Below are positions 4,775 to 33,052 of a stretch of DNA of 33,052 nt, in pieces (position 1 is the first letter of the stretch; each line of letters begins with the position of its first letter). The stretch covers positions 1 to 33,052 of the forward strand of contig WJKS01000082.1 of NCBI GenBank assembly GCA_014728985.1, given 5' to 3'. The DNA comes from Candidatus Aenigmatarchaeota archaeon (lineage in GTDB: Archaea > Aenigmatarchaeota > Aenigmatarchaeia > CG10238-14). Under the pieces are notes generated by a model, which worked only from the letters and a program-made list of their open reading frames with translations, did no database searches and was not told the DNA's origin. Both the position numbers and the translations under genes were made by a program.

Positions 4775-4830
4775 AGTTATCATTGAGTCAATCAATAAGT
4801 ATTATATTTAGAAAAACACAAGGTGTATGT

Positions 4831-5760
4831 ATGGCGTTTGAATTTGATTTTGAAAAAGAATTGGAAAAACCTCTTTTTCTTGAAAAAGACTTAAAGAAAG
4901 AAGAGGACTGTAAGGGAGGCAAAGTAGTTAAGAAAGACGTGGTTGAAAGTAGTGCTTACAAGAGCAATTATTCAAAAGTAATCCAGTTTACAAGAAAAAT
5001 AAAGAAAATGTATGGAGATATTATAAAATCCGTGTTAATTTTTGGTTCAGCCGCGAGAAAAGACGCAAAAAAAACTTCTGATATAGATGTTTGGGTGGTT
5101 ATAGATGATACCTCTACCAAGGGGACTCAGGATATATTGAAAGTCAAAGCTCAATTACAAGTAATCGGGAAGGACATGAAAGATATTCATGTTCAGATGA
5201 ATGGTCTCACCGAATTTTGGAATTGGATGAAGACCGGTTCTCCGGAATTATTTAATTTTTTGAGAGACGGATTAGTTATATATGATACGGGATTTATTAA
5301 ACCAGTTCAAAGAATGTTGAAGATGGGTCTATTCCCTCCAAGTGAAGAAACTATAAGCCTGAAAGCAAAATCATGTGAGGGTTTAATTAAAAGGGTTGAG
5401 GCCTCGTGGAAGGCAGATGTTTTTGATCTCAGATACGCTGCAACTGATATTTGCCAGGCAGTTATAATGCATCATTATAAGGAAATGCCAGATCATAAAA
5501 GGATGTTTGATTTTCTTGAAAAATTGGTTAAAGAGCACGGTTTGGAAGAAGAGTATATGAATAAGTATAGAGAGTTGAATAAATTATGGAAGGACTTGGA
5601 TCACAAGAGAGTAGAGACTCCAACACCAGATTATGTTGCAAAAGCAGATAAAATAGCGAGGGATATCATAGAAAGGATGAAAAAATTATTACCTGAAGAT
5701 TTACAAGAAATTGATTATCCTGGTAGTAAAATAAAGAAAATCGGTGGTAAGTTAAAATGA
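4831..5760 (+). CDS. Nucleotidyltransferase-domain protein with C-terminal HEPN-like helical domain (copy 1)
   Basis: Pol-beta NTase motif GSAARKDAKKTSDIDVWVV; C-terminal helical DLRYAATDICQAVIMHHY...YRELNKLWKDLDHKRV. ATG 4831 preferred over track start 4783. Confidence 0.75.
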   Translation: MAFEFDFEKELEKPLFLEKDLKKEEDCKGGKVVKKDVVESSAYKSNYSKVIQFTRKIKKMYGDIIKSVLIFGSAARKDAKKTSDIDVWVVIDDTSTKGTQDILKVKAQLQVIGKDMKDIHVQMNGLTEFWNWMKTGSPELFNFLRDGLVIYDTGFIKPVQRMLKMGLFPPSEETISLKAKSCEGLIKRVEASWKADVFDLRYAATDICQAVIMHHYKEMPDHKRMFDFLEKLVKEHGLEEEYMNKYRELNKLWKDLDHKRVETPTPDYVAKADKIARDIIERMKKLLPEDLQEIDYPGSKIKKIGGKLK

Positions 5761-6890
5761 AAAGAAAGAGGGAAAAGAAGAAAAAGGCTGAATTTGAGGA
5801 ACTCAAAACAAAAAAAGAAAGAATGGACAGGGTAAATAAGTTCAAAGATAAGGTACTTGAGAAGTATGAGGATAAGATCAAATGTATTGTGGTCATGGGT
5901 TCTGTTGTAAGAGATGAGTTTAAACCAAAATCTGATATTGATATTTTTGTAGTGGCCGACGACACCGATAAGCCAATGAGTTTTAATCAAAAAAAGAAAA
6001 TAGATAGTGATATTTTAAAGATGGCCAAGGATATTTCACCTAATCTATCATTTCAGCCTTTATATACTTTAACTGAATTCATGGATTATGCTAGAATCGG
6101 GCATCCAATAATTTACAATTTTATTAAAGAAGGACATGCAGTCTTTGATGCCGGTTTTTTCACTCCATTCCAAAGACTACTTAAAAAAGGAAGAATACCC
6201 ATGACAAGGGAGGCAATTGAGACTTATATAGAGGGTGCACCTAAGAAATTAATGCGTGCTAAAACTGTTAAATTACTTATTCTTGCGGAGGATTGTTTCT
6301 ATGCTATGTTAAATTCTGCACAAGCTGCTTTAATGTTCATGGGCGTAGAACCCCCTGTTCCAAATAAAGCATATGATGCTGTGAAAAAATATCTAGTTGA
6401 ACCTAGTTTACTTGAGTCAGAGTACGCGGAACAGTTAAAAGATATAATAGATATAAGAAAGAAGATTGAGCATAAGGAAATAATGGACGTAAAAGGTGAA
6501 TATGTTGATCAATGGATTGCGATCGCGGATAGATTTATTGATAGAATGTATGAATTATTAACTTCTTTAGAAGAAAAGAAAAAGGAAAAGGTACTTGAGA
6601 GAACATATAGTGTTATGAAAAAGGCTGCAGTTGCTGCTTTAAAGTCAGTGGATAAATTACCTAAAGAAGACGAAGAAATACCACAGGAATTCAGAAAACA
6701 GTTCATGGATAACAAACTTCTGAAGACTTACTATTGGGATGTCTGGAAGAAAGTGGATGTAATGAAAAACCTAGCAGAAAAGGGAAGATTAGATAAAATA
6801 CCTGAAAGGGATGTTTATCAGATGAGAGAACATGTAAGAACGATGATTAGGGACCTTTCCAGAATTTTAGAAAAAAAGGAAAAGAAATAA
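5757..6890 (+). CDS. Nucleotidyltransferase-domain protein with C-terminal HEPN-like domain (copy 2, with extra C-terminal helices)
   Basis: NTase motif GSVVRDEFKPKSDIDIFVV; HEPN-like AEDCFYAMLNSAQAALMFMG...IIDIRKKIEHKEI (RX4H); ATGA overlap with the previous gene. Confidence 0.75.
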   Translation: MKRKREKKKKAEFEELKTKKERMDRVNKFKDKVLEKYEDKIKCIVVMGSVVRDEFKPKSDIDIFVVADDTDKPMSFNQKKKIDSDILKMAKDISPNLSFQPLYTLTEFMDYARIGHPIIYNFIKEGHAVFDAGFFTPFQRLLKKGRIPMTREAIETYIEGAPKKLMRAKTVKLLILAEDCFYAMLNSAQAALMFMGVEPPVPNKAYDAVKKYLVEPSLLESEYAEQLKDIIDIRKKIEHKEIMDVKGEYVDQWIAIADRFIDRMYELLTSLEEKKKEKVLERTYSVMKKAAVAALKSVDKLPKEDEEIPQEFRKQFMDNKLLKTYYWDVWKKVDVMKNLAEKGRLDKIPERDVYQMREHVRTMIRDLSRILEKKEKK

Positions 6891-23034: not shown

Positions 23035-24222
23035 ATGAACAGGATAAATTTTCTTATAAATGAAATCAAGAAAGAGAAGGAACTGGTTAAAGATAGTTTT
23101 TGGATGTTCCTTGCAAATGCGATCCCGGCTATAATGGGATTTTTGATGAATTTAATACTGGCGAGAATTTTCAATCCAGAACCATTTGGCAATTATAAGA
23201 CCGTAACTTATCTAATAACATTTTTTTCCGCTTTAATAAGTTTTGGAATTCCAATCACGCTTACCAAATATATAGCACAATTCAGGGTTAAAGACAAGAA
23301 GAAAATAGGTTATATGACCAGATGGTTTTTAAATATAAGACTAATATCCTTTTCCGCATTATTTCTGATTCTATTGGTTTTTCTAAAACCGATAACAGTC
23401 TATTTTCTTCATGATCCATCATTAAGTAATTTGATACTTGCCGGATTTCCATTGGTCTTCGCAACTATTTTTGGGTTTTTGCCTTCCATGGTTTTGGGGT
23501 ATGAAAATTTCAAGTTATATTTCTTTTCAAAGCTAGTAACTAGCATTGGTTATATATTATTTGTCGTAGGATTAGGTTATTTTTCTGGGGTACCTTTTTC
23601 TGTCATAGGTTTGGGTATTTCCAATCTTTTGGGTAGCCTCTTATGTCTTAAATATCTTAACAAAAAGGGAAGCTTCCGAAAAACAAATGGAAAATTTAAT
23701 GTAAAAGAGATATTTTTAAAATTCTCTTTACCAATGTACATCTTTACAATACCTAGTTTTTTCGGTAACGCTGTAGTTCCAGTTTTAAGTATATTCTTTT
23801 CGCCCGAATTAATAGGACAGTATTCATTTTCTTTTGTGTTTTATTATTCAGGGCTAGTAATACCAAGTACCATAGGAACTGTTCTACTTCCGAGAAATTC
23901 CAGGCTCATTAGTTTGAAAGATGAAAAGAACATTAAAAAAACTCTAATTAAAGTATTTTCTGTCTATACCTTAATTGCAGTTGTTGGAATTTTAGGAGTA
24001 TTTTTATTGGGAAGAACAGTTCTATCAATCATAGCTCCCGAATATTTGCCAGGATTAGTGTTCTTTAAGGCTCTGGTTTCTTTGGGACTGATTTCAGGTT
24101 ATATAATAATCTATAACTCTTATTTGACAGCAAAAGAAGAATTAAAATGGGTAGCTCTTTTAACATTAATTCAGAATCTATTGATATTCTTGGTGAGTTT
24201 CCTATTATTGAAATCTGTTTAG
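23035..24222 (+). CDS. Oligosaccharide flippase / polysaccharide biosynthesis membrane protein (MOP superfamily)
   Basis: DSFWMFLANAIPAIMGFLMNLILARIFNPEPFGNYKTVTYLITFFSALISFGIPITLTKYIA and repeated TM helices. Confidence 0.87.
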   Translation: MNRINFLINEIKKEKELVKDSFWMFLANAIPAIMGFLMNLILARIFNPEPFGNYKTVTYLITFFSALISFGIPITLTKYIAQFRVKDKKKIGYMTRWFLNIRLISFSALFLILLVFLKPITVYFLHDPSLSNLILAGFPLVFATIFGFLPSMVLGYENFKLYFFSKLVTSIGYILFVVGLGYFSGVPFSVIGLGISNLLGSLLCLKYLNKKGSFRKTNGKFNVKEIFLKFSLPMYIFTIPSFFGNAVVPVLSIFFSPELIGQYSFSFVFYYSGLVIPSTIGTVLLPRNSRLISLKDEKNIKKTLIKVFSVYTLIAVVGILGVFLLGRTVLSIIAPEYLPGLVFFKALVSLGLISGYIIIYNSYLTAKEELKWVALLTLIQNLLIFLVSFLLLKSV

Positions 24223-26552
24223 ATTACTTCCCCATAGGCAGATCCAATCTCCTCATACCCCCTTGACTTATAATTGTCAGATAGACTGCTTAGGAAATTC
24301 TTCATAAATCTTTCTTTCTCAGAATCCCATTTCTCATTTGATTTAAGGAACTCAATCAATTCTTTTAGTTCCATTAGGTAAGCCTTAATCCTTGAGGGTT
24401 CTATCACATAAGGTAACATATTCAACAATTGATAAAATCTAGTACTGGTTTTTATGTCTTCTATTGAATCTTTATCTATCTTTATTTCCCTTTCCTTTAA
24501 TTTCGTTAATAATTCATTAATTACAAAGTTCTGATTTTTAACCACTTCTCTGAGTTTATCTACACTTTCCCTCAAGCCTTCAATTTCCTCAGACTCCACT
24601 CTAGTCACTCTTTCCAGGACATCATCAACTACAAAATTCTGCCTTTCGGCTACTGATTTTAGCTTATCAAATTTATCTTTCAAGGCCATTAATTCCCTTT
24701 CTACTATATAAACATCCTCAATATCTTTTGAGTCAACCTTTTCCCCCAGTCTCTTTTTAATATCTTCTAAGTCATTTTTAAGCTCATGATCCGTTTTCTT
24801 TATTTCTTTAATCTCATCTGTTATGCCAGATGTCCAACTTGCTATATTATTAATTTTATCCAGGAATTCTTCCTGATTTGCAGGGACAGATATCTTCTTA
24901 CTTACCTTCAATAAGTCGTTCATGAATTTCTCTTCTCTATCACCCCAAACATCGGAATCCTTCATTTTCCTTATAATATCCTTCATTTCTTTTGAATACT
25001 CTTTTAATTTTATTCTGTCTTCTAAAAAGGGTAATATATTCAGTAGTTGATAAAATCTTAGTGAGAGCCCGAGGTTATTTAGTTCTTTAATATTAATGTT
25101 TGGAATATTTCTTACCTTTTCCATGCTATTTATTAAATCAGAAATTACATTGTTCTGTTTTTCGATAATTTTCTTTATTTTTTCTATTTTATGTGAGGAC
25201 GCTGGAACTTTACGAGGAAGATCCGGTAACTTATCTACTTCATTAAGTCTTTGTTTAATTTTATTTATTTCTGGAATTAACCTTCTTTCTAACTCCAGAA
25301 GCCTTTCTCTATTATCGTCCAAATGCCTAGATTTTGAATCAACTTTTGAATTGAAGTTTATTATCTTTTCCTCAATTTCACCTATTCTATCTAATTCATC
25401 TCTTATACCAGTCTCATTAATCAATTTAAAAAATTTTGCAACGCTTTCTCTTTCTTTTTGGAATTTACTTACTTCATTAGTGATCTCTGAGAACACGTCT
25501 TCAATCTTTTCAGCATTCTTTTCAGACTCTTTTTTAATTGTCTCCATTTCTCTTATCTTTTTATCTACTTTGTTTAAAATTTTACTTTTTTTGTTTATCT
25601 CAGAATTGAATTTTTCCATCTTATTTTCTATATTTGACAAATCCGCTAGAACCCCTTTCATTTCTTTAAGTTTATTTTTAATATCAGTTTCATCAATTAG
25701 ATTTGATACTTTCTCAATTTTTTCCTTACTAATTCCTATTTTTTGAATTTCCTCTCTGATATCCTTTTTAAAACTTTCGAGACCTTTAGAATCGACAGAA
25801 TTCTTCATCTTTATACTCATTTCATCTAACATTTGGGTAATTTCAGTTGTGAGCTCATCTAATTTAGAAATTTTTTCCTTCTGACCTTGTAATTCATTTA
25901 CCTTATCTGTGATCTCCGAGAATATAGTTTCAATTTTTGCTGCTGTTCTATCAGAATATTTCTTCGTATCTTCAATCTCTTCTATTTTTCCATTTATTTT
26001 TTTAGATAAATCCACAAGATTATCAAAACTTTTTATTCTCTCCATAGTCTTTCTAAAATCCTTAGATTCCTTCTCAAGCGCTCTTACTAGATTTTCTATC
26101 TTTTCTATCTTGACAGCATTTTCCATTATTTCCTGTTCCTTCTTTTCAAATCCCTTTCTGACTTTTAGCGGTTCGATGTCACCAACTACTTCTTTTATTT
26201 CTTGAAAGTTCTTTTCAACTTTACCAAACGATCTTTCGGTTTCCAAAATCATGGTTCTAAGTTCCCCTATTTCTTCGGACATTTGCGCAATTCTTTCATT
26301 TAGCTCATTCCTGTAACCGCTTATTATATCAAATTTTCCTTCTAATTTTTCGGTCTTTAGAACAAGATCAGTTAAAGAACCAATTTCAGAATCAGAACTT
26401 TTCGAACTTAGTTTATTTTTAAAATTATCATCACTGATTTTTTGTTTTGGTATCTCCTTTGTGACCCCATATTTTTTCTTAAGTTTTTCTTCTTTCAATT
26501 CCTCCTTAGACTTCTTTTTAGTGTCTCCTTCCTTTTTGGAAGAACCTTTCAA
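24219..26552 (-). CDS. Long coiled-coil protein with a duplicated C-terminal RFYQLLN-LP module (start ambiguous)
   Basis: Heptad-rich Lys/Glu protein; copies LRFYQLLNILPFLEDRIKLKEYSKEMKDIIRKMKDSDVWGDREEKFMNDLL and TRFYQLLNMLPYVIEPSRIKAYLMELKELIEFLKSNEKWDSEKERFMKNFL. Track start is TTG 26552; coding-like frame extends upstream to a TAA at 26676-26678. Confidence 0.8.
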   Translation of the reverse strand: MKGSSKKEGDTKKKSKEELKEEKLKKKYGVTKEIPKQKISDDNFKNKLSSKSSDSEIGSLTDLVLKTEKLEGKFDIISGYRNELNERIAQMSEEIGELRTMILETERSFGKVEKNFQEIKEVVGDIEPLKVRKGFEKKEQEIMENAVKIEKIENLVRALEKESKDFRKTMERIKSFDNLVDLSKKINGKIEEIEDTKKYSDRTAAKIETIFSEITDKVNELQGQKEKISKLDELTTEITQMLDEMSIKMKNSVDSKGLESFKKDIREEIQKIGISKEKIEKVSNLIDETDIKNKLKEMKGVLADLSNIENKMEKFNSEINKKSKILNKVDKKIREMETIKKESEKNAEKIEDVFSEITNEVSKFQKERESVAKFFKLINETGIRDELDRIGEIEEKIINFNSKVDSKSRHLDDNRERLLELERRLIPEINKIKQRLNEVDKLPDLPRKVPASSHKIEKIKKIIEKQNNVISDLINSMEKVRNIPNINIKELNNLGLSLRFYQLLNILPFLEDRIKLKEYSKEMKDIIRKMKDSDVWGDREEKFMNDLLKVSKKISVPANQEEFLDKINNIASWTSGITDEIKEIKKTDHELKNDLEDIKKRLGEKVDSKDIEDVYIVERELMALKDKFDKLKSVAERQNFVVDDVLERVTRVESEEIEGLRESVDKLREVVKNQNFVINELLTKLKEREIKIDKDSIEDIKTSTRFYQLLNMLPYVIEPSRIKAYLMELKELIEFLKSNEKWDSEKERFMKNFLSSLSDNYKSRGYEEIGSAYGEVI

Positions 26553-26686
26553 TTTCTTAAATAAGCCCTTTTTATGTTGTGTCTTTTTTATATTCTCTTC
26601 ATTATTTTCAGATTTCTTATCTTCTTCTAATTCAGAATTATCCTCTATTTTTTCCTTTTCTTCTTTCTCGGGTATTTAAATCACCA

Positions 26687-29600
26687 TCATTCTTTTCCCT
26701 TACTTAATGATTTAGTTAAAGAATCGATATATATTTTCGCCATCCTAAATCTTCCTTTCTTTAATTTATCTTTAGCTAAATTCAATTCAACATTGAGTCC
26801 AAAAACATCTTTTTCAGACTTTTTCAACGATTCAATTTTTTCTTCTATTCCCTTAATCAAGTTCTCATACTTCTTATACAATTCTAAATCCTTGTCTGGT
26901 ATTTTATGTGGAGAGTGATAAGGAGGTCTAAAGGCAACAAAATAAGGCTTACCCTTATTATATTTAGGATTCTGCATCATACCAATTCCCACTTCTAATT
27001 TAGTTACTCTCTTAGCATAATCTTCTCCAAATTTCCTTTCTATTCTTTCCAGATCCCCAAGTGATTTTGTATGTAATTGTACTTCTGTTAATACATTACC
27101 TTTAATAGCTTCTTTGAAGTCCGATAAGACCTGTGAAACCATAATTAAGCCGATACCCCATTTACGGAATTCACGACAAGCTTTTTCTAAGGCAACATAG
27201 CCACCCTTACCCCCGTATTTTTCAAGTAATCTGTGGACTTCATCCAGAACTATTACCAATTGCAGATCAGTAGATTCCTCCCAACCCTGTTCAAATATAG
27301 TCTCTACTATTGATTTCACAGCCTCATCATATTCTCCAGGCTTTAGTTTGTTTAAAGTGAATATTGTTATTTCACCTGGTTTCATATATTTTTTGAAATC
27401 AATCTTAACTTTGGGATCCTTTACCTCATATATCATACCTTTGTATGGTTTGACGTCTCTTAGATTCATTCCGAACTTATTATAGAATCTTAAGAGGTCC
27501 TGGTCCTTGCAAGGTCTTACAAACCCTGTCCATTGCGCTGTAGGGTCAAAGACTACAACAGGTATTTTCTTTTCCAGTAATTCTTCTATCATTATCATCG
27601 AAGAAACTGTCTTACCTGAACCTGTTGCTCCAGCAGTAAGGACATGTGTTTTTAATTCTTTCATTTCAAATGTAGCCTTTTGATCTGTTTCTGCTACTTG
27701 GCCAAGCCATATTTCGCCTTTTGGTAAACTTTTTGGGTCAACTGGAAATATATATCTAACTTTAGATGCCTTCCATTTTTTATAAAATTTCCTTGAATAA
27801 TAGACAGTAGGTACAGAAACCACTAGTAAAGTTATTAAAATAATGATTCTGATCCTCTTGGTAGTGAAAAAGGATTGGGTAACTATGAAAGTATCAGCAG
27901 AGGATATTTGCTCACCGTCGAATTTAACCTCAACTTCATAAGAATATTCTCCAACTGTTGCGTTTTTGGGTATATGAATATTTTTCATTAAAAGCAAGGA
28001 AGTTTCAATTTCTTTAACCTCATGATCTCTGAAGATTATTTCATTTGAATCCAATCTTTTAGCCGTGTGATTTATACTTATGTTAAAGCTTTTTCTATAA
28101 CCTATATTATGAACCTGAACTCGGAAAATTGCTGTTCCATTAGGGTTCACTCTACTTGTTAATGTTTTTACGTCAATATCAAGGTACATACTCCCAACTA
28201 TTGGTACTGTTATTGTCACCGGTAAGCGTTGGGTATAGCCTTCACCTGATATCAAAATTTCTCCAGTATAAACAGCTGGTTCTGTGGATGTAGGTATGCT
28301 AGCATAGATAGGAATATCCTTTTCTTCGGTAAAATTCAGTTCTATAAAATTTTCATCAACAGATAAGAAATGAGATGTTGATCCTCCGAAATGTATTGAT
28401 ACGTTTATATTTCCATCATGCGTGTTGTTTATCCAAAGATCATATATTTCAAGTTTACCAGCTTCTATTTCTACGTCGGTTAAATTAGTTTTAACATTAA
28501 ATGGTGGTTTTTTAGCTTTTCCACAGTCTTCAGGACAGTTTTCTATATTTTCAGTTGCTTCACAAATACCGTTACCACATGTTGCTGATGAACTTCCTCC
28601 ACCACCCCCGCCTGTTGTTCCAGTGTCACCATTACCTTCATTCCCCCCAGCACATGATGGACAATATTCAGCTACAACGAAACAAGATAAGCTAGTAAGA
28701 TCGGCTGAAATTGTATTACTTGAACTATTCAGAGTAGTGGTTAACATGTTCCAAGATCCAGAGCAACCTGTTCTATTGTCCAATTCCCAATTTGAACACT
28801 GATATATCCTAAGTGCAGGTTTACTTAAATCAGAATACGCGTTTAAATTCTCAGTGAAATTGAGAGTTATCGTGAGATTATCAAATTCTAAATTGTTGTC
28901 AATTGCTAATGCCGTCATTTTATTTTTGGTTGTAGACTGTAAAAGAATTTCAGAAACAGAAACATTATCAATGTTTATGGGGTCAGTTATATTTGTAGCG
29001 TTTTCATCGAACAGTGTTCTCACTGAGGAGTTTATATCAACATTTCTGAAGTATAGCTCATGGTCAATTACTTTTAATTTCATATCGACGTTTGTATTGA
29101 AAACCGAAATATTGTAACTCCCACCACTAACATAGGTATTGGGTATGTCCATGGTTTTGTTGGTACCTGGTCTATAGAAAGTGAAGTCTAATGTTATATT
29201 ATTATTGTCATTATTTGTGGCATTCCCGATAAAGAAAAGTCGGGTATAAATGTCAAACCAGCCGCTTGTGGAATTAATCTGATCACTTGTATCATTTGCG
29301 TAGATCGTATAATCATATGAACCCAAGTTTGAAACATTATTCAAAGTTGTTCTCCAGGTACCTGTAAGTGTATTTGTGGAAGTATTGGATAGGTAATATG
29401 TATAATTGGTTGAATTAGGATAGATTACAACAGTCCAAACTTTATCTACTCCGAACCAATCAGTAACGTTTGCTTCAATGGTTACATTATTGTATGGAGA
29501 TGTCGAAGTAGCATAAGTACCAGTAAAGAAAGGCAAATTATAATCAACTTCTCTTATTATCATCCAGGACTCACTTTCGTTTACAGATACGTTGTAGTAA

Positions 29601-32600
29601 AGACTAGAATCTTCACTTATATTACATTTGAGTGTATGGTTTCCCTCTGCTACAGTTACATTCGAACTTATGTTCCAATTATAGACTGCATGACCTGTAC
29701 TATTAGTCGTGTTGGTTCCAATTGATTCTGTACCGTCCCAGAATTGAATAGTATATCCCTGTACACCTGCAGTACTTACATTATCTGTGACTTTACAAAC
29801 TAAATCGGTGTAAGTAACTTCCCCAGCGGTTCTATTTGTAATATTTCCCGAGGAAGGGTTTTCAAAACTAACCTCAGACCAACCATAGATAAATATAGTA
29901 ACGTTGTCTTTATTTGAATTATAATAATCACCTGTTGCATTTGTTATTATTAGTTGCTCTCTTGGGTCACATGTAGCTTCGAGTGAATAAGAATCATTGT
30001 CACCTGTTGTTACTGGATTCGATGAGGGACAAGAGGAAGCTTTTTCAAGGTACCAACTTACAGTGTAACTATTCTCTGGAATTCCACAACCGTCCGAAAT
30101 AGTTGAATTGAGTTGTACTGTTTCTTGTTCATGGAAAATAGTTCCAGCTATAGGGTAAATTACTGTAATATTCAGGGTATCTTTTAATCTTATATTTGTG
30201 CTATTTTGATTATTTTGAACATGATAATAACTATAAGGGCTTCCAGATAAAGTGACATTGACCGGATAAAGGCCTGTTATATTAGAACAAGTTGGCCACC
30301 AATTATAAGAACAGTACCCGGTATTATTAACTGGCCCTTGATAAACTTGGGAATTATTAATATACCAAGTACAAGTGTATTGACTTTGGGTATTGGGGAC
30401 AAGATTATTATTCTCATCATATATTCCTGCAACTAAATCCAATAGCCCCCCTCTAGTCCCATTTTTACCTACAGTTGAACTATGGAAGTTGATGTTAATT
30501 GGTACATGTATAGTTAGGTTATATGAAGAAGAATTGGTTGAGTCATAAAATACATCGTTATCTACACCAGAAATCCATACCTGATCACCAGCACTAAAAC
30601 TAGAATCAGGATTAAAGGTTAGACTACAATGCCCTGTTGAGTTAGTTGAAGTCTGATTAACTAGAGTAAAAATGGAGCCATCCGTAGTTATCCAAAAACT
30701 ACAGTTGACATTATCTTCGACATAGCTAGCGTTGGAAGTATCGTTGATTCTTACAATAAGTTCTGTAGTATTTGTCCCAGTTCTATTAACATTACTATTG
30801 TCTCCTTTCAAATAAAGTACTTCTATACTGTGTTTAGTTACGGTGAAATCATAATAACTCGAGTTCTGCCAAAGATGCAAAACAGCACCAGTTGACTCAT
30901 TATAATCTCTATATTCGAACATATACCTATTATTTCCAGTCCATGTTTTGTCAGAGGCTTTAGTAAACCAGGTTGTCCCATTAGTACTTAAATTCTTTGT
31001 TTCAATTTTACTCCATGAACTATTCCTATCAAAATACAGCCATAAAGAAATCGTAGCATTATTACCTTCGTAATCTCCCACGTCAACAGAGAAATTAAAT
31101 GCGGAGTTCCAAATAGAAGAGCTTGAATTAATTTGGGCGTTAGTTAACTCTAAGGGATAATTACTAGATCCCTCTAATCTGTAATTTCTTGAGGATGTGT
31201 GTGGTTGTTTCCAGTTAAAGAAATCATATACACCATTTCCGTTTGTGTCCTCTTTACAAACAAAGAAATTATCAGATCCAACAAGTTTTACAGTATAAGT
31301 AGGATCATCAGTATCACAATCGCTTGTTCCACTGTCTGGGGTTATGTCATGGTATACCCCATTTTGGTCCCAGTCTACAAAGATTCTTTCATCAGAGGTG
31401 ACATAATTCTCATCTATTGTAATATTTGCAGTCACATTATAAAGAATTTCAGCATCATTTGCAGTGTAGATGGTCATGTTTTTGATCCAAAATCCAGTGG
31501 AATTAACCTGGCCTCCAGTAGTGTTCAGGTACGCAGGGATAGATGTCGACATAGTGTCATCCCATAATCTATGCGTGATTGGAAGATTGCCAACCGAAGG
31601 AATTTGATAACTATTGGATGAAATATTACATACTTTTAAACCACTTTCAGTTATTATAGAATAAGATGTTCCCCAAAAGTCACAGGAACTGCTTGCAGCA
31701 GCATTAACTTTTACATAATTAATCGTTATATTATTGGCTGAATTTTGGGGATAGGATATATTTACAACTTCATTACCTATACTGGTGTTAACAAAAGTAT
31801 TATTAAGTCGGGACCATGCACTAACAGAATTTTCAGAATTTATGGCTTCAGAGGCGTTATAGTTATATGTTATGTTAATGTAACTTACATTTAGATTTCC
31901 AGCCGCATCTGAGTGAAATACAAAGGGCACATTACAGATTTGTGTCCCACATGAGTCAAGATAATTTTGTATTGATTGACCTATACTGGAATTTTCTACA
32001 TAATCAAAATTTCTTAATTTCTCGCTACTAGATGACCAATCATAGTCGCCATCATTGCCTATATCGATTGAAGTGTTAGTAGGGTAATAATTAAAATTCA
32101 ATATGTAGATACTCTTATCCCTAGAAACACCAAGTGTCTCGTTCAAGGTGTCAGTGCTCACGTCACCAATAACTACACCTTTGACGTCGTGTCCTGTGGT
32201 ATAACTCCAAATAAAATTACCATTGGAGTCAAGTTGATATATTTTATCGTCTCCGGAACCAATCGCAATTTCATTTCCAGTATCAGATGTACTATCACCG
32301 ATTGATATACTATAAATTGTATCTCCAATATAATAATTCCATTTAAAGCTACCTAACTGGGTAAAAACAAATACGGTCCCATTGCTAGTTCCTATAGCTA
32401 TTTCATTACCTGTATCCGCTGTTATATCACCTATTTTCACTGCTCTTACAGTATTTGAAATTGTTATGTTTCTTATTGGGTTACCACTAGAACTTATTAT
32501 ATAAACAGAACTACCCGCTCCTACAACAATTTCATTTCCACTATATGTGGTGTTCAATTCTCCTATATCTAAACTATAGACAGTTTCATCGATATCATAA

Positions 32601-33052
32601 TTCCATTTGAGCTGCCCGGAAACATTCAACGCTGTAATCTTATTATCATTACCTCCAATCACAATTTCTTCACCAGGATCTGAAGTTAAGTTGCCTATTG
32701 AAACTGCATTGACAGGGGAACCAATATCATAATTCCATAGTTCTTGACCGGAAGAATTCAATAAATAAATTTTATTATCATCATTTGTGGCGATTGCTAC
32801 TTCATCATAATCTGAACTTAAATTAACATTCCCTATTGAGACATCGTTTATAGTGTTTGAAGTTGATGTGTTAAAGTCCCATAATTTTGTTAATGAGGGA
32901 TTGTATAATGTTACATGTGGCTCACCACCTGAACCAACAACAATATCATTTTTTGTAGCACTACTCAAATTACCTATATCTATACATTCGAATTCAACAC
33001 TACTACCTGTTGTTTGACTTGGTGTAATCTCACCTAACATAGTAATATTGGA
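26687..33052 (-). CDS. Giant surface protein: beta-propeller/Ig-like ectodomain, one TM, C-terminal HerA/VirB4-like ATPase (N-terminus outside window)
   Basis: Blade repeats (IGDITADTGNEIAIGTSNGTVFVF...), CGNGICEATENIENCPEDCG, TM IIILITLLVVSVPTVYYS, Walker A AGATGSGKTVSS (27608-27631), Walker B VIVLDEVHRLL (~27239-27256). Frame stays open to the window edge (SNIT before M33040). Confidence 0.85.
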   Translation of the reverse strand, partial: SNITMLGEITPSQTTGSSVEFECIDIGNLSSATKNDIVVGSGGEPHVTLYNPSLTKLWDFNTSTSNTINDVSIGNVNLSSDYDEVAIATNDDNKIYLLNSSGQELWNYDIGSPVNAVSIGNLTSDPGEEIVIGGNDNKITALNVSGQLKWNYDIDETVYSLDIGELNTTYSGNEIVVGAGSSVYIISSSGNPIRNITISNTVRAVKIGDITADTGNEIAIGTSNGTVFVFTQLGSFKWNYYIGDTIYSISIGDSTSDTGNEIAIGSGDDKIYQLDSNGNFIWSYTTGHDVKGVVIGDVSTDTLNETLGVSRDKSIYILNFNYYPTNTSIDIGNDGDYDWSSSSEKLRNFDYVENSSIGQSIQNYLDSCGTQICNVPFVFHSDAAGNLNVSYINITYNYNASEAINSENSVSAWSRLNNTFVNTSIGNEVVNISYPQNSANNITINYVKVNAAASSSCDFWGTSYSIITESGLKVCNISSNSYQIPSVGNLPITHRLWDDTMSTSIPAYLNTTGGQVNSTGFWIKNMTIYTANDAEILYNVTANITIDENYVTSDERIFVDWDQNGVYHDITPDSGTSDCDTDDPTYTVKLVGSDNFFVCKEDTNGNGVYDFFNWKQPHTSSRNYRLEGSSNYPLELTNAQINSSSSIWNSAFNFSVDVGDYEGNNATISLWLYFDRNSSWSKIETKNLSTNGTTWFTKASDKTWTGNNRYMFEYRDYNESTGAVLHLWQNSSYYDFTVTKHSIEVLYLKGDNSNVNRTGTNTTELIVRINDTSNASYVEDNVNCSFWITTDGSIFTLVNQTSTNSTGHCSLTFNPDSSFSAGDQVWISGVDNDVFYDSTNSSSYNLTIHVPININFHSSTVGKNGTRGGLLDLVAGIYDENNNLVPNTQSQYTCTWYINNSQVYQGPVNNTGYCSYNWWPTCSNITGLYPVNVTLSGSPYSYYHVQNNQNSTNIRLKDTLNITVIYPIAGTIFHEQETVQLNSTISDGCGIPENSYTVSWYLEKASSCPSSNPVTTGDNDSYSLEATCDPREQLIITNATGDYYNSNKDNVTIFIYGWSEVSFENPSSGNITNRTAGEVTYTDLVCKVTDNVSTAGVQGYTIQFWDGTESIGTNTTNSTGHAVYNWNISSNVTVAEGNHTLKCNISEDSSLYYNVSVNESESWMIIREVDYNLPFFTGTYATSTSPYNNVTIEANVTDWFGVDKVWTVVIYPNSTNYTYYLSNTSTNTLTGTWRTTLNNVSNLGSYDYTIYANDTSDQINSTSGWFDIYTRLFFIGNATNNDNNNITLDFTFYRPGTNKTMDIPNTYVSGGSYNISVFNTNVDMKLKVIDHELYFRNVDINSSVRTLFDENATNITDPINIDNVSVSEILLQSTTKNKMTALAIDNNLEFDNLTITLNFTENLNAYSDLSKPALRIYQCSNWELDNRTGCSGSWNMLTTTLNSSSNTISADLTSLSCFVVAEYCPSCAGGNEGNGDTGTTGGGGGGSSSATCGNGICEATENIENCPEDCGKAKKPPFNVKTNLTDVEIEAGKLEIYDLWINNTHDGNINVSIHFGGSTSHFLSVDENFIELNFTEEKDIPIYASIPTSTEPAVYTGEILISGEGYTQRLPVTITVPIVGSMYLDIDVKTLTSRVNPNGTAIFRVQVHNIGYRKSFNISINHTAKRLDSNEIIFRDHEVKEIETSLLLMKNIHIPKNATVGEYSYEVEVKFDGEQISSADTFIVTQSFFTTKRIRIIILITLLVVSVPTVYYSRKFYKKWKASKVRYIFPVDPKSLPKGEIWLGQVAETDQKATFEMKELKTHVLTAGATGSGKTVSSMIMIEELLEKKIPVVVFDPTAQWTGFVRPCKDQDLLRFYNKFGMNLRDVKPYKGMIYEVKDPKVKIDFKKYMKPGEITIFTLNKLKPGEYDEAVKSIVETIFEQGWEESTDLQLVIVLDEVHRLLEKYGGKGGYVALEKACREFRKWGIGLIMVSQVLSDFKEAIKGNVLTEVQLHTKSLGDLERIERKFGEDYAKRVTKLEVGIGMMQNPKYNKGKPYFVAFRPPYHSPHKIPDKDLELYKKYENLIKGIEEKIESLKKSEKDVFGLNVELNLAKDKLKKGRFRMAKIYIDSLTKSLSKGKE
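32150..33040 (-). repeat. Tandem beta-propeller blade repeats (~40-47 aa per unit)
   Basis: Recurring V.[SA][IV].IG[DN].T.D.GNEIAIG..D.KIY.L.S.G...WNY.I pattern. Confidence 0.7.

Follow-up and report, generated by a model that had tools for sequence, protein, structure and literature searches.

Can one archaeal polypeptide both hold another cell and carry the motor that acts at the point of contact? The question is raised by the last gene of a 33,052-base stretch of DNA (the window), which is the entire contig C67 of genome G000, a fragmented archaeal MAG of 1.0 Mb and 82% completeness. An initial annotation of this DNA proposed that an adhesin-like ectodomain, a membrane anchor and a HerA/VirB4-type ATPase are encoded in one uninterrupted frame. 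We analysed the parts of this protein, its relatives and its gene neighbourhood.

Results

One open frame encodes an ectodomain, a membrane helix and an ATPase

The fusion gene (26687-33052, minus strand) is a single open frame with 2121 codons visible (2121 aa). Its 5' end is cut by the contig edge and the true N-terminus is therefore missing. Complete relatives of the same family align with the window protein from end to end (about 2,150 residues, 38-39% identity) and carry N-terminal signal peptides, for example MGKILFCILLALLVFSFFNISLA. This alignment indicates that approximately 75-110 N-terminal residues, signal peptide included, are absent from the window. The signal peptide that the initial annotation expected further upstream was thus recovered in complete relatives of the truncated window gene.

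The visible protein begins with a PQQ/WD40-like beta-propeller (residues 1-325; 32078-33052, minus strand), with Pfam propeller matches over residues 38-220 (PF25292, 5.9e-12; PF13360, 1.8e-9). An AlphaFold2 model of the N-terminus of a complete relative, L034, built with the window sequence in the alignment, reached a pLDDT of 91.5. It shows a beta-sandwich followed by 28 strands, counted as seven propeller blades, and many propellers were matched by Foldseek. Next comes an NxS/T-rich, Ig/beta-sandwich-like stalk (residues 326-1465; 28658-32077, minus strand), assigned from sequence and conserved end to end in relatives. Domains found in the ectodomains of relatives are NEW3, MG2, DUF11 and Big. 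A self-BLAST for internal repeats gave 0 hits, a result not counted as evidence either way. The ectodomain holds 93 NxS/T sequons against 44 ± 5 in composition-preserving shuffles, an excess that fits the STT3-type oligosaccharyltransferase encoded in the same genome. The ectodomain is probably sugar-coated.

The stalk is followed by a Gly-rich linker (28589-28630) and the Cys motif CGNGICEATENIENCPEDC (28523-28579), both on the minus strand; the latter recurs in a paralogue and several relatives. The juxtamembrane region (residues 1516-1730; 27863-28507, minus strand) is conserved with the paralogue and probably comprises two beta-sandwich domains. Hydropathy gave one strong transmembrane (TM) helix only, at residues 1734-1752 (27797-27853, minus strand), close to the anchor first placed at about 27795-27860. 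It is followed by RKFYKKWKASK. In 58 of 62 family members the K/R count is higher after the TM helix than before it, which fits the proposed topology of an ectodomain outside and an ATPase inside. Propeller and DUF87 matches lie in the same frame, and the linker, Cys motif, Walker A and Walker B listed in the initial annotation are all present. The anatomy set out here is almost certainly correct.

The ATPase groups with HerA by sequence and model

The ATPase domain (residues 1771-2055; 26888-27742, minus strand) was delimited by Pfam, profile search, structural model and Foldseek, and leads into a C-terminal helical tail (26690-26887, minus strand; helices 300-325, 331-345 and 349-366 in the model). 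The HerA central domain DUF87 was matched above its cut-off at residues 1783-1888 (6.3e-9), with weaker Pfam matches to FtsK_SpoIIIE (2.4e-5), TrwB (0.0044) and VirB4-type AAA_10 (0.062). An alignment of 22 ATPase sequences found HerA (4d2i, 1.9e-14) as its best PDB profile match. The model made from this alignment (pLDDT 90.5) likewise had Sulfolobus HerA 4d2i as its best Foldseek match (2.6e-13). The residues after the TM helix, for which a HerA or VirB4 identity had been suggested, are thus nearest HerA in domain, profile and fold searches.

Four residues of HerA, K154, D176, E356 and the trans arginine finger R381, are critical (PMC4351679). They correspond to K1814, D1836, E1938 and R1963 of the window protein, all invariant in 64 of 64 sequences. 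K1814 lies in the Walker A motif GATGSGKT (27608-27631), E1938 in the Walker B pair D1937-E1938 (DEVHR; 27239-27244), also invariant in 64/64, and R1963, aligned with R381, at 27164-27166 (all minus strand). As judged from sequence and model, the ATPase is a member of the HerA clade of the HerA/FtsK superfamily with its catalytic residue set intact.

HerA is an archaeal DNA-end resection translocase. The present ATPase shares its core fold and catalytic residues but differs in being membrane-anchored beneath a large ectodomain. The N-terminal HAS barrel is absent, as the approximately 55 residues between the TM helix and Walker A hold only two short strands, and NurA is not beside the fusion gene but on contig C104. 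The best NCBIfam match was CedD (2.1e-12), at 46.5 bits against a curated cut-off of 600 (NF053655). CedD and CedB of the crenarchaeal DNA exchange system (PMC11868833) are also TM-anchored HerA/VirB4-like ATPases, but the window protein scores far below the CedD cut-off, has no Pfam match to the VirB4-specific N-terminal domain PF03135 and bears a giant ectodomain, none being described for CedD. FtsK/SpoIIIE and type IV secretion system (T4SS) coupling proteins are likewise pumping ATPases of this superfamily tethered to the membrane; they matched more weakly and are without an adhesin-like ectodomain. A type IV pilus ATPase was rejected, the PF00437 match being marginal (0.093). A defence system was likewise set aside: the PADLOC hits (mad8, 2.8e-15) reflect general similarity to HerA-like ATPases, and no defence genes adjoin.

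Genomes of the phylum were also searched for PF03135-type VirB4, and none of 156 gave a match, the 55 that carry the fusion included; the control was positive in a single bacterium, and the profile may overlook archaeal VirB4 that has diverged. The result bears on a type-IV-secretion-like injector, or 'straw', in which the ectodomain would dock on a host and a VirB4/TraG-like ATPase would export effectors or DNA. Such a device is suggested by a domain order matching that proposed for nanohaloarchaea by La Cono et al. (PMC10266531), and by weak matches to CedD, itself TM-bearing and needed for DNA import (PMC11868833), and to TraC/TraD. It is opposed by the missing PF03135, by an AAA_10 match far weaker than that to DUF87, and by the neighbourhood, where a conserved channel or effector gene was not found. 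We regard an injector of this kind as rather unlikely, if still a serious contender.

The fusion is conserved in independent genomes

A paralogue of at least 1893 aa (L007) lies on contig C97 of the same genome and aligns over about 1,000 residues (33% identity) spanning the Cys motif, juxtamembrane domains, TM helix and ATPase. The family is carried by 14 of 37 near relatives, and 55 of 156 genomes from the phylum contain the fusion. Sixteen genes whose 5' end lies inside the contig encode 1,393-12,145 aa, with no stand-alone ATPase among them. Because contigs of relatives frequently stop within these giant genes, lengths read from MAGs are often minimum values.

The family extends further. 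A second phylum-level set, reached through L017, was positive in 24 of 34 genomes, with frames of up to 12,145 aa. A third set, reached through L018, which is 'Hadesarchaea' by title only, gave three clear positives in 28 genomes, one of 7,944 aa. Among 119 Asgard-titled genomes, matches occurred only on two short contigs of the suspect MAG G157; these were treated as probable contamination and an Asgard occurrence was not accepted. The family is thus common to Aenigmatarchaeota and two other archaeal groups. Its tree has three well-supported groups: one with the window gene and all ten detected propeller members, a second with the C97 paralogue and an 11,262 aa protein, and a diverged third with members from all three archaeal groups. 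No relatives of the fusion gene were found in viral contigs or plasmids, and a viral or plasmid origin was rejected.

These results dispose of an assembly chimera or frameshift uniting two unrelated genes. Although a MAG contig that cuts the 5' end invites the suspicion, the entire arrangement is retained in independent genomes, and the same join in the paralogue, so that chance and a chimeric join are both excluded; we give this explanation next to no credence. The fusion of ectodomain, TM helix and ATPase is real, old and widespread in the phylum.

Conservation is uneven along the protein. The ATPase is the slowest-changing part, with 83% identity to congener G001 compared with 46-60% for the ectodomain. 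This bears on whether the protein is a structural surface-layer component whose ATPase serves only its own export or assembly. Sequon-rich beta-sandwich stalks do resemble archaeal S-layer-type proteins and the genome encodes an N-glycosylation enzyme. However, such a role sits poorly with an ATPase conserved far above the stalk and a family found in only about a third of genomes, and we consider it very improbable.

Two unusual arrangements were observed among relatives. Fusion genes occur as tandem pairs at G186:C8 (L108-L110) and G170:C157 (L126), the first gene encoding up to 12,145 aa and the second 1,393 or 1,502 aa. At L137 (G215:C11, 5871-6791, minus strand) a 307 aa relative keeps the REFRKWG motif without the Walker A lysine or an ectodomain; it is a degenerate ATPase.

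A coiled-coil gene accompanies the fusion gene

Directly downstream in the window lies a coiled-coil partner gene (24219-26675, minus strand), whose frame opens at 26675 and whose first listed start is a TTG at 26552. At 54 of the 59 loci with room for one, a cytoplasmic coiled-coil gene follows on the same strand no more than 2.5 kb away. Of these genes, 22 went into a partner profile and so match it by construction; partner genes of further loci matched at E-values of 1e-28 to 1e-102, against 3e-6 at best for reversed copies. Coiled-coil composition alone is therefore insufficient to explain the matches. SMC/Rad50-like matches to the partner were also obtained, with the warning that coiled-coil homology is hard to prove. 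A FlaD/E-like identity, guessed from sequence, was rejected as no such Pfam match was found.

At the junction of the two window genes (26663-26691, minus strand) an ATG of the partner is coupled to the ATPase stop and is followed four codons on by an in-frame TAA (MMVI*IPEKEEK). The partner start must hence lie downstream, or the real genome differs. In several relatives the partner gene starts cleanly at its junction with the ATPase gene.

No channel protein or secreted substrate was conserved beside the fusion gene in the neighbourhoods of relatives. With a cytoplasmic coiled coil as the most conserved neighbour and no channel, the protein may act in adhesion or signalling without transport: ATP-driven ring assembly would cluster the ectodomains and anchor to, or signal through, the coiled-coil partner, as in inside-out control of adhesins. 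One paralogue does adjoin a histidine kinase, a response regulator and a MinD-like ATPase. Against this, the complete catalytic set is kept, arginine finger included, and the HerA-clade enzymes studied to date act on polymers. We judge a purely non-transporting complex unlikely.

Other neighbours were recorded. A gene for a MinD-like ATPase is found at three loci; neighbours of the C97 paralogue (L007:5693-10245) include a CBS-HisKA kinase, a response regulator and a MinD/ParA ATPase. At L034, L035 and L036 a conserved protein of 667-675 aa with a signal peptide, NEW3 and a C-terminal TM helix is encoded upstream of the fusion gene, and may represent a third component within that genus. In the window, a polysaccharide flippase gene (23035-24219, plus strand) adjoins the partner gene, with synteny held in congener G001. 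Two adjoining paralogous genes (4783-5760 and 5757-6890, plus strand) are nucleotidyltransferase-like.

Discussion

The initial annotation held that ATPases of this clade are normally separate from surface adhesins. This generalisation has not applied to small symbiotic archaea since 2023, when adhesin-ATPase proteins of nanohaloarchaea were published. La Cono et al. described giant 'SPEARE' proteins (SVXNc_0300, BNXNv_0298 and a protein of Ca. Nanohaloarchaeum antarcticus) with a signal, propellers, Ig repeats, a TM helix, a VirB4/TraG-like ATPase and a coiled coil; for nanohaloarchaeal proteins of 8,880 and 9,409 aa they proposed effector secretion into the host, and they corrected an earlier 'restriction endonuclease' label (PMC10266531). 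That label stems from a type III restriction (helicase) match which both ATPases give, ResIII in our case.

Set beside the published description, the present family shares the signal peptide, beta-sandwich, PQQ/WD40-like propeller, Ig-like stalk, single TM helix, cytosolic HerA/VirB4-superfamily ATPase and C-terminal helices. The full part list is found in the window and complete relatives together, the window being without its own N-terminus. The general design is thus already known from nanohaloarchaea. The present protein is smaller (about 2.2 kaa versus 8.9-9.4 kaa), has one modelled propeller rather than two, and is followed by a coiled-coil gene, whereas VirB4 lies immediately downstream of SVXNc_0300. 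Its ATPase is nearest HerA/CedD in the libraries used, as against the VirB4/TraG-like ATPase of the published SPEARE description. What is new is the compact single-propeller form, its phylum-wide spread, the coiled-coil partner in place of VirB4, the HerA/CedD-nearest ATPase and the absence of PF03135-type VirB4 from 156 genomes.

Our best overall explanation, which we hold to be evenly poised, is a single-pass surface adhesin or receptor with a cytoplasmic HerA-clade motor tail. It draws on the invariant catalytic set (64/64), the wide retention of the fusion, the partner in 54/59 loci and the published nanohaloarchaeal host-contact proposal. It is weakened by the single TM helix per subunit, by the lack of a conserved adjoining channel or secreted substrate, and by PF03135-type VirB4 in 0/156 genomes, unlike nanohaloarchaeal loci. 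As expected from HerA biochemistry, the ATPase would work as a cytosolic hexameric ring, because each active site is completed by a finger from the adjacent subunit; six ectodomains would then bundle over one motor ring. The ectodomain would hold another cell or surface, and attachment to another cell seems somewhat probable from its domain types. At the contact site the ring and its coiled-coil partner might spend ATP on moving or pulling a substrate, candidates being DNA, protein or the coiled coil itself. That the fusion protein carries a substrate across the membrane is plausible, although we lean slightly against it. The only constant companion found is a coiled coil and not a channel, so models without transport keep some weight. 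More tentatively still, the fused adhesin-motor and its coiled-coil partner could form a self-contained contact machine without VirB4 or a pilus, in which outside contact directly gates or powers the inner HerA ring; it would be an ancient system, split by duplication into at least three old clades and common to three archaeal groups.

With PF03135-type VirB4 absent from these genomes, the published T4SS reading becomes testable. Expression and imaging should be feasible with the compact 2.2 kaa version, and the coiled coil is now named as its conserved partner. The adhesin-ATPase fusion, known from a few halophiles, proves to be a widespread tool in an entire phylum and also outside it, and bears on the ways in which ultra-small archaea attach to other cells and exploit them.
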